Positions 55,542 through 60,761 of a DNA stretch of 64,000 nucleotides are shown here, piece by piece. The position numbers and the translations under genes are program-made. The first letter of the stretch is position 1; the number at the start of each line of letters is the position of its first letter. The notes under the pieces were generated by a model. That model had not been told where the DNA came from. It did not search any database and saw only the letters and a program-made list of their open reading frames with translations. This DNA is from an uncultured Spirochaetaceae bacterium (GTDB lineage: Bacteria; Spirochaetota; Spirochaetia; Sphaerochaetales; Sphaerochaetaceae). The stretch spans positions 1 to 64,000 of the forward strand of contig CALXLH010000037.1 in assembly GCA_944389145.1 (NCBI GenBank), read 5' to 3'.

Positions 55542-55613
55542 GGGCGGTTAACTCAGCGGGAGAGTGCCACCTTGACGTGGTGGAAGTCATAGGTTCAAAC
55601 CCTATACCGCCCA
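55542..55613 (+). tRNA. tRNA-Val (anticodon GAC)
   Basis: Complete cloverleaf of 72 bases: acceptor GGGCGGT/ACCGCCC, anticodon stem CCACC/GGTGG with loop TTGACGT and anticodon GAC, T-arm ATAGG-TTCAAAC-CCTAT. CCA is not encoded. Decodes GUC/GUU. Confidence 0.96.
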
Positions 55614-55678: not shown

Positions 55679-56941
55679 CTATATTCCTGAGCTTCCCACA
55701 AGCCTATTCAGATTCCTGAAATAATCAAGCTTACCCTCATCGATATCCATGCCTAGCAGCGTGAATAGCTCATCCTTCCCGATCCCTGCCTCCTCGAGCG
55801 AATCGGATAGAGAGGCAAGGTCACGGTAGCGGTCGGCGATTCCCGCCCGCTGCAGGTTAATCAGCGAGACGATGCCATTGCCGTTCACGATGATGCTGCG
55901 GAGGGAAAGGGCACCATGGGAGAAGACAGGCTCCTCATCCACCGCATGCATCTCAAGCTCCCTGAGCCTCTCCCAGTCCCCATAGGCAAGGGCCCTGCCC
56001 TTCAGCCTTCCTATCGTGCTGCGTATGCCCTCATCGCAGGGGCATGAGGAGATATCCACAGACCAGAGCAGCCTGAGAGCAGCAGCAGCTGTCCTGAGCA
56101 TCTTGTTCCGGCCGGTATCGCCCAAAGGCCTTCCCTTCGGCCTTGACAGCATAAGGAAGCCGGCATCCTCATGGACCAGGGATGGAACAGGCAGGCGATT
56201 CCCGAGCCACCTTATGATCGCGGCCTCATTGCAAGGATTCCTATGCAGCGAATGACAGATGAGATCACGGTCATGGGAAAGGAGGTCTGGACGAAGCCGT
56301 ATCGTGTCCTTCAAGGCCTCCTCCTCATTGAAGCGCGATATGCGCGAGCTGTCGCCTGTGAGGAGCACAGAAGGAACGGCAGCCCCGTCAAATACGGCTG
56401 GATGGGTGTACTGCGGATACTCCAGAAGGCCATCCTCGAAGCTCTCCACTGCAGACGAAGGCGCCCTCAATGCGCCGTCAAGGAGGCGTATCACGGCCTC
56501 GGCGGCAACTATCGCGGCGCTCTCGCCTCCTGTGAGGATATAATCCCCGATCGATATCTCATCATCAACGTATCTCCGGAAGCGCTCATCCACCCCCTCA
56601 TAGTGCCCTGCTACGAGGATGATATCCTCTTCCTCCGCAAGCTCGTGGGCCATGGATTGAGAGAACCGCTTTCCCTTTGGCCCAAGGAGTATGACCCTTG
56701 ATGAAGGCGTCCTGACGGAATCCAATGCAGAAGAGAGCGTATCGACACGCAGGAGCAGCCCTGGACCTCCGCCATAAGGCGAGTCATCAACGGCCCTGAA
56801 GCATCCGTCCGCATAGTCCCGTATGTCCACTATCCTTATATCCACAAGGCCCTTCTCGGCAGCACGCCGTATGACAGGATATGAGAGGAAGCTGTCGAAT
56901 GAGCCAGGGAAGATGGATAGGAACGTTATTCTCATAGCCAT
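55679..56941 (-). CDS. trmD: TrmD fused to an APH-like pseudokinase
   Basis: 420 aa. Residues 1-235 are tRNA (guanine-37-N1)-methyltransferase: Y-G-G-G-P-G near 57, G-H-Y-E-G-V-D-E-R near 112, S-I-G-D-Y-I-L-T-G-G-E near 130 and G-L-L-E-Y-P-Q-Y-T near 171. The usual D-S-F general-base region is E-S-F. Residues 240-420 match APH(3') kinases (S-S-C-P-C-D, A-D-R-Y-R-D-L) but H-G-D is H-G-A (A344), the metal-site Asn is Ser349 and the I-D-x-G Asp is Asn362, so phosphotransfer is unlikely. Start uncertain (56941 or 56935), no good ribosome site. Not in the usual rpsP-rimM-trmD-rplS operon. Confidence 0.85.
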   Translation of the reverse strand: MAMRITFLSIFPGSFDSFLSYPVIRRAAEKGLVDIRIVDIRDYADGCFRAVDDSPYGGGPGLLLRVDTLSSALDSVRTPSSRVILLGPKGKRFSQSMAHELAEEEDIILVAGHYEGVDERFRRYVDDEISIGDYILTGGESAAIVAAEAVIRLLDGALRAPSSAVESFEDGLLEYPQYTHPAVFDGAAVPSVLLTGDSSRISRFNEEEALKDTIRLRPDLLSHDRDLICHSLHRNPCNEAAIIRWLGNRLPVPSLVHEDAGFLMLSRPKGRPLGDTGRNKMLRTAAAALRLLWSVDISSCPCDEGIRSTIGRLKGRALAYGDWERLRELEMHAVDEEPVFSHGALSLRSIIVNGNGIVSLINLQRAGIADRYRDLASLSDSLEEAGIGKDELFTLLGMDIDEGKLDYFRNLNRLVGSSGI

Positions 56942-59840: not shown

Positions 59841-60284
59841 TCATCTGATCCTTACGATTACCTCGAACTCGCATGGGATATTCCCGTTCGGCAGGTTATG
59901 GGTTCCCATAGCCGTCCGCGCATGATATCCCCTCTCCTCGAATACCTCCATGATGAAGTCAGAAAACCCATCCATCACATGATCGATCTCATGGAAGCCC
60001 TCGCCGCAATTGACCAGCGCGAAGATCCTCACGAAGCTCTCGACACGGTCAAGCGAGCCAAGGTAGTCCTTCAGCGCGCCGGTGATGATCCTTGCGCACT
60101 CGCGCGCAGCCTCATAGCCGGTGTCCACGCTCAGGTCAGTACCTATCCTCCCCTGATAGAGAGCCTTTCCGGTGAGCTGGTCCTCAGGACCGTGGCCGCC
60201 TACATAAAGAAGGTTCCCTACGCGGCGGAGGACGACATTGCCGCGCTTAGCAGCGAACCTGTCCTCTCTTTCCCAATCCTTCAT
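59841..60284 (-). CDS. RidA/YjgF-family protein, copy 1
   Basis: 147 aa, the longer YjgF subtype. Contains L-Y-V-G-G-H-G-P near 26-33, G-Y-E-A-A-R-E-C near 56 and H-A-R-T-A-M-G near 120-126 with the substrate-binding Arg, followed by a C-E-F-E ending. RidA proteins hydrolyse enamine/imine intermediates released by PLP enzymes. It lies 9 bp after the second RidA gene. Confidence 0.88.
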   Translation of the reverse strand: MKDWEREDRFAAKRGNVVLRRVGNLLYVGGHGPEDQLTGKALYQGRIGTDLSVDTGYEAARECARIITGALKDYLGSLDRVESFVRIFALVNCGEGFHEIDHVMDGFSDFIMEVFEERGYHARTAMGTHNLPNGNIPCEFEVIVRIR

Positions 60285-60293
60285 CTCTCCTCC

Positions 60294-60761
60294 TCAGTCC
60301 CTGATCTTGATTATCGCATCGACGATGACAGGGGCATCATCATTGAGGGCATAGGCGCCCATGGCAGACCGGGCATGCTGTCCGCGCACGCCGAAGACCT
60401 CCACCATGAGATCCGAGAATCCATTCACTACCGCAGGCTGCGAGGAGAAGTCAGCGGCGCTGTTGACAAGGCCCAGGACCTTGACGAAGCACTCAACGCG
60501 GTCAAGCGATCCGATATAATCCTTTATCGTACGGAGCATGTTGAGGCCGCACTGCCTTGCGGCGGCATATCCCTCTTCCTGCGTGAGATTCCCGCCGACC
60601 TTGCCCTTATAGAGAAGCTCTCCGCTCTCCGTATAGGGAAGATGCCCGGATACATAGAGCATATTGCCATCAAGCACGGCTGCAACGGCGCCCTTTCCCT
60701 TCCTGTTCCTTGCTGGAAGCTCGATGCCAAGCGCCTCGAGCCTCTTCTCCACATCGCTCAT
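60294..60761 (-). CDS. RidA/YjgF-family protein, copy 2
   Basis: 155 aa, clearly related to its neighbour (L-Y-V-S-G-H-L-P near 35-42, G-S-L-D-R-V-E-C-F-V near 84, H-A-R-S-A-M-G near 130-136). Overlaps the SelA-like gene by ATGA, so it is probably made with that enzyme. Two diverged copies suggest different imine substrates or a heteromeric trimer. Confidence 0.88.
   Translation of the reverse strand: MSDVEKRLEALGIELPARNRKGKGAVAAVLDGNMLYVSGHLPYTESGELLYKGKVGGNLTQEEGYAAARQCGLNMLRTIKDYIGSLDRVECFVKVLGLVNSAADFSSQPAVVNGFSDLMVEVFGVRGQHARSAMGAYALNDDAPVIVDAIIKIRD

Follow-up and report, generated by a model that had tools for sequence, protein, structure and literature searches.

Background

TrmD is an essential and highly conserved drug target, and its G36-G37 rule of tRNA recognition is well studied. 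In the H. influenzae enzyme, Asp50 reads G36, and the Ser198-Gly199-x-His201 motif of canonical TrmD contacts the G10:C25 pair (PMC5372744); the roles assigned to TrmD residues in this report are taken from PMC5372744 and PMC9508554. The only class of TrmD fusion found described in the literature searched is TrmD-Tm1570, exemplified by the Calditerrivibrio nitroreducens protein (PDB 8B1N; PMC11187310), in which TrmD carries an extra C-terminal domain that is a second SPOUT methyltransferase-like domain and in which the SGNH motif is kept.

In this report, we describe a gene that likewise joins TrmD to an additional C-terminal domain, but that domain derives from an aminoglycoside kinase of the APH(3') type. 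The gene resides in a 64,000-nucleotide stretch of DNA (hereafter, the window) from an uncultured Spirochaetaceae bacterium whose genome (2.13 Mb in 42 contigs) is 95% complete. The author of an earlier note on this DNA knew of no such protein, and we found no description of a TrmD-APH fusion in the literature searched, a search that most subscription papers lay beyond.

Results and discussion

The TrmD domain of the fusion gene

The fusion gene (TrmD2-psiAPH, 55679 to 56941, minus strand; stop at 55679) can start at an ATG at 56941 (MAMRI...) or at 56935 (MRITF...), which gives a protein of 420 or 418 amino acids, respectively. Numbered from the second ATG, the TrmD (SPOUT m1G37 methyltransferase) domain spans residues 1 to 219 (56279 to 56935, minus strand), and the APH(3')-like domain directly abuts its C-terminal side. 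This architecture had been read from the letters in the earlier note, and it is borne out by Pfam matches for both domains and by predicted structures that agree with them. In the domain search that the note called for, the TrmD family PF01746 is matched with an E-value of 4.3e-45, and both NCBIfam TrmD equivalog models are passed (TIGR00088, 242.8 bits with a cut-off of 195; NF000648, 256.8 bits with a cut-off of 220). In an AlphaFold model whose alignment input was 11 relatives, the TrmD half has the SPOUT fold and resembles S. aureus TrmD with a Z score of 21. Across TrmD structures overall, Z is 19 to 21 over about 150 residues, and residues 157 to 184 are modelled badly.

Like the TrmD proteins of TIGR00088/NF000648 with structures from H. 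influenzae, E. coli and S. aureus, the TrmD half retains the fold, the SPOUT knot with its SAM site, D50, G59 and the catalytic positions R150 (equivalent to R154) and E164 (at the D169 position, where canonical TrmD rows likewise have E or D). These four residues are present in every complete TrmD2 row of the alignment, and the SAM residues are conserved as well. Unlike canonical TrmD, TrmD2 is encoded outside the ribosomal operon and has a distinctive F/Y46-R47-S52 loop near Asp50 (position 46 is F, Y or W, versus mostly H or Y in canonical TrmD). The fusion also has no equivalents of His201, Trp207 and Arg208: the SGxH motif reads TGDS in the window, where S196 stands for His201, and F202 and N203 stand for W207 and R208. 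His201 is 100% conserved in canonical TrmD rows and is retained in most other TrmD2 rows, but is absent from all 17 fusion-clade rows; the Trp-Arg pair that follows the motif is additionally lost in the clade to which the window sequence belongs (hereafter, the window clade).

A second, canonical trmD is located in the same genome, within an ffh-rpsP-rimM-trmD-rplS operon. Because this ordinary copy occupies the usual ribosomal operon, the fusion is a paralogue, which we call TrmD2. Judged by its residues, it is a solitary second TrmD with an intact methyltransferase core and changed tRNA-contact residues, and we predict that it is an m1G37 methyltransferase with altered tRNA recognition.

The APH(3')-derived domain

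Residues 220 to 418 (55682 to 56278, minus strand) have a single Pfam match, to PF01636 (APH; 34.8 bits with a cut-off of 23.2), and PF09936, the SPOUT domain of the TrmD-Tm1570 class, is absent. The NCBIfam APH(3') model APH_3p is matched at 92.4 bits (E-value 3e-26), which is under its equivalog cut-off of 205. The closest solved kinase found by sequence search is APH(3')-IIIa (E-value 2e-11), and the modelled domain superimposes on APH(3')-IIa and -IIIa with a Z score of 22 over about 205 residues at pLDDT above 90.

Like APH(3')-IIIa, -IIa and -Ia, the domain has the C-lobe fold, E60 and the motifs SSCP, HG and AGxADRYRDL. Unlike these enzymes, it is fused to TrmD and has lost strands b1 to b3 with about 50 N-lobe residues, and all four of Lys44, Asp190, Asn195 and Asp208. 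The helical aminoglycoside-binding insert is shortened and mostly lost, and the aminoglycoside-contacting C-terminus (E262, F264) is gone. The catalytic loop, HGDxxxxN in active APH, reads HGALSLRS (H340 to S347; 55895 to 55918, minus strand), such that D190 of APH(3')-IIIa corresponds to A342 and N195 to S347, and the metal-binding Asp208 is replaced by N360 (55856 to 55858, minus strand). The three lost positions listed in the earlier note as A344, S349 and N362 are these same residues; the missing Lys44 and N-lobe stretch go beyond its list. On the evidence of sequence and model, the C-terminal half is thus a predicted pseudokinase, with the kinase fold kept and catalytic residues lost. None of the 11 members of the window clade has Lys44 or the ATP-binding half of the N-lobe, which makes nucleotide binding, an option raised in the note, unlikely.

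Within this clade, the C-terminal domain is less conserved (52%) than the TrmD domain (73%), and its dN/dS is 0.14 to 0.34, versus 0.08 to 0.19 for TrmD (pairs with unsaturated dS). Newly invariant in the C-terminal domain are VNGNG, H231 and W321. We also sought a basic RNA-binding surface in the domain, which is roughly neutral (pI 5 to 8).

Distribution and origin of the fusion

The APH domain query matched 21 of 139 genomes of the family, 17 of them with TrmD fusions and four with standalone APH genes. Relatives carry the names uncultured Spirochaetales, Spirochaetaceae, Sphaerochaeta and Sphaerochaetaceae. Fusion genomes that are at least 90% complete also have a second TrmD match, which is canonical wherever examined. 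The window-type fusion is kept under purifying selection in 11 genomes of one Sphaerochaetaceae lineage. These were assembled independently and share the fusion without stops or frameshifts, which rules out two genes joined by a frameshift or assembly artefact, the outcome that the earlier note had named as refuting its reading. The note also asked whether relatives share the fusion and the lost residues: the fusion and the loss of D190 occur in 11 of 11, and the losses of N195 and D208 are variable. No conserved protein operon surrounds the gene among the genomes compared. A phage origin was considered and rejected, as viral contigs contained no relative; 25 matches to phage records were obtained, none covering 80% of the query, and those listed match TrmD only and lie in unannotated fragments that are probably host DNA. 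Elsewhere in the window, two neighboring minus-strand genes (59841 to 60284 and 60294 to 60761) are alike in sequence and, by eye, RidA-like.

A tree built from 85 TrmD domains places TrmD2 in a clade apart from canonical TrmD (support 100/99). The clade contains all solitary non-operon copies but one unrelated row, as well as tandem copies from Solobacterium, and its members come from gut Bacillota and Sphaerochaetaceae. The APH fusions, together with one sequence that ends at a contig edge, constitute a single sub-clade (95/94). In the kinase-domain tree, a branch with SH-aLRT 94 separates all fused APH domains from the other sequences, and the branch to the window clade is long (1.19). Outside the fusions, the closest kinases come from Treponema-type genomes; most are encoded by standalone APH genes, and they share 44 to 49% identity with the intact fused domain. 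By these trees, TrmD2 was fused a single time, within Sphaerochaetaceae, to a kinase of the APH(3') type whose catalytic residues were lost later.

Fused APH domains are found in several states. Two genomes, G131 and G125 (L014/L032 and L018/L033), have a full-length APH with the Lys, Glu, HGD, Asn and Asp all present. Four sequences (L015 to L017 and L019) have lost the helical insert and C-terminus and retain the catalytic residues. In the window clade (L002 and L004 to L013), b1 to b3 are gone, D190 is replaced by A, S, K, N or R, and N195 and D208 are variably lost. Decay thus followed two routes.

A neighboring tRNA-Val(GAC)

A tRNA-Val(GAC) gene (55542 to 55613, plus strand) is convergent with the fusion gene across a gap of 66 bp. 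We propose it as the substrate. It has C36 and G37 (position 37 at 55577, plus strand) and an A10:U25 pair, and is the sole tRNA with G37 and without G36 among the tRNAs read in the window genome (G000). In all window-clade genomes but one (10 of 11), the two genes lie 66 to 3003 bp apart, and this linkage persists despite flanking protein genes that differ among at least four contexts. Because the linkage is shared by descent, we claim no chance probability for it. It was not found in G065, with unfused TrmD2 or with full-APH fusions.

Among genomes of the family with clear calls, tRNA-Val(GAC) has G37 in 25 of 25 with TrmD2, versus 15 of 74 without it (Fisher p 2e-13); within genus g1, the counts are 7 of 7 and 5 of 28 (p 1e-4). 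When corrected for phylogeny with a five-protein tree, two to four informative pairs remain, all in the expected direction and none opposite, a sample in which the sign test is underpowered and not significant. Six of the seven Bacillota TrmD2 genomes examined also have tRNA-Val(GAC) with G37, and G497 has no match; wherever it can be scored, the TrmD2 clade is confined to genomes with a C36-G37 tRNA.

A strict dependence of G37 in tRNA-Val on TrmD2 is contradicted by 15 Sphaerochaetaceae and seven Erysipelotrichaceae genomes, where tRNA-Val(GAC) has G37 and TrmD2 was not seen. TrmD2 is thus not required for this tRNA. In the seven Erysipelotrichaceae, judged from the loci examined, only canonical TrmD was seen, which makes G37 a background for TrmD2 and not a sufficient cause. 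Two sister species (G054 and G069) have kept the tRNA and have no TrmD2 gene. The A10:U25 pair occurs in A37 versions of tRNA-Val(GAC) as well, and the context of A37 loci revealed no clear separate ancestral locus. In one genome (G044, contigs C36 and C46), a fusion-linked G37 tRNA-Val(GAC) coexists with an A37 version elsewhere, which represents either two loci or contamination.

Proposed function

Our leading, though tentative, hypothesis is that TrmD2 methylates G37 of tRNA-Val(GAC), and that the pseudokinase is a non-catalytic docking or stabilizing domain. Canonical, G36-requiring TrmD should handle this tRNA (C36, A10:U25) poorly, and the changed residues around Asp50 in TrmD2 (F/Y46, R47 and S52), along with loss of His201, would shift tRNA recognition. 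The pseudokinase C-lobe is placed just behind the tRNA-binding C-terminal domain of TrmD, where it could offer a docking or stabilizing surface for tRNA-Val(GAC). Of the partners suggested in the earlier note (a tRNA, a nucleotide or a regulator), we infer that a tRNA is the likeliest. Against this hypothesis, Asp50, the reader of G36, is still present, the C-terminal domain is not basic, and the link to G37 is not strict. We have more doubt about a stronger version, wherein TrmD2 is a dedicated m1G37 methylase that accepts a pyrimidine (C36), kept alongside a tRNA-Val(GAC) that had drifted to G37, and the dead kinase was recruited as a tRNA-reading module that extends the substrate range. If the proposed role is correct, TrmD2 shows how bacteria handle tRNAs that break the G36-G37 rule and offers a testable system of enzyme-tRNA co-evolution. 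The passage from a full-motif kinase to a dead scaffold within one family would also be a rare natural record of the reuse of a resistance-type fold.

Full conservation of the active site and Asp50 is also what would be seen in a redundant m1G37 methylase that acts on the same G36-G37 tRNAs as an extra dose or stress copy, with an APH-derived domain that merely stabilizes the protein or its dimer. The patchy distribution of TrmD2 (12 changes on the species tree) fits such a copy, and in the C. nitroreducens TrmD-Tm1570 protein the TrmD domain on its own has 86% of the activity, an indication that TrmD can do without an added domain (PMC11187310). Since the Tm1570 domain adds so little to m1G37 activity, a purely structural pseudokinase is a live rival. 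However, the loss of His201, W207 and R208 in the window clade, the TrmD2-specific residues near Asp50 and the bias to G37 genomes are unexpected for a redundant copy, and we rank this explanation below both versions of the tRNA-Val hypothesis. We consider it improbable that the C-terminal domain is a functionless, decaying remnant of a bifunctional TrmD2-APH(3') protein, which may have coupled an aminoglycoside phosphotransferase to a methylase. The free drift at catalytic positions, the loss of the N-lobe in one branch and of the insert and C-terminus in another, and the lower conservation of this domain than of TrmD are all suggestive of decay, but dN/dS well below 1, the uninterrupted frames, the newly invariant residues and the confidently predicted fold are not.

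We assign still less probability to a different target, either another RNA (rRNA or non-tRNA) or protection against an antibiotic or nuclease, with the link to tRNA-Val being coincidental synteny. The flanks of tRNA genes are a common landing site, the tRNA contacts of TrmD are altered and the G37 association has exceptions; however, the residues of the G37 and G36 pockets are all retained, and the G37 tRNA recurs in most of the Bacillota genomes with TrmD2. Pseudokinases often serve as ligand-gated regulators, and the retained fold is in keeping with a sensor of a nucleotide or aminoglycoside that regulates TrmD2. We nevertheless judge such a sensor very improbable, given that the ATP-binding strands and Lys44 of the N-lobe are lost, as are the aminoglycoside-contacting C-terminus and most of the helical insert.

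Other TrmD2-type and APH(3')-like genes

In four species of the window's genus (G031, G032, G057 and G058; L149 to L152), a standalone APH(3')-like gene with its catalytic residues complete occupies a fixed site behind polA- and coaE-like genes. In a Treponema-type genome (G335, L158), an APH(3')-like kinase follows a P-loop (AAA_33-like) domain in an open frame of 438 amino acids. Solobacterium metagenome-assembled genomes (L038, 4337 to 6726; L042; L043) carry two differing trmD genes in a rimM-trmD-X-trmD2-...-rplS operon. Finally, a solitary TrmD2-type protein in Pseudoramibacter porci (L044, 5998 to 7203, plus strand) has a C-terminal extension of about 180 amino acids that has no Pfam match and that, by eye, resembles a MarR-type winged helix.
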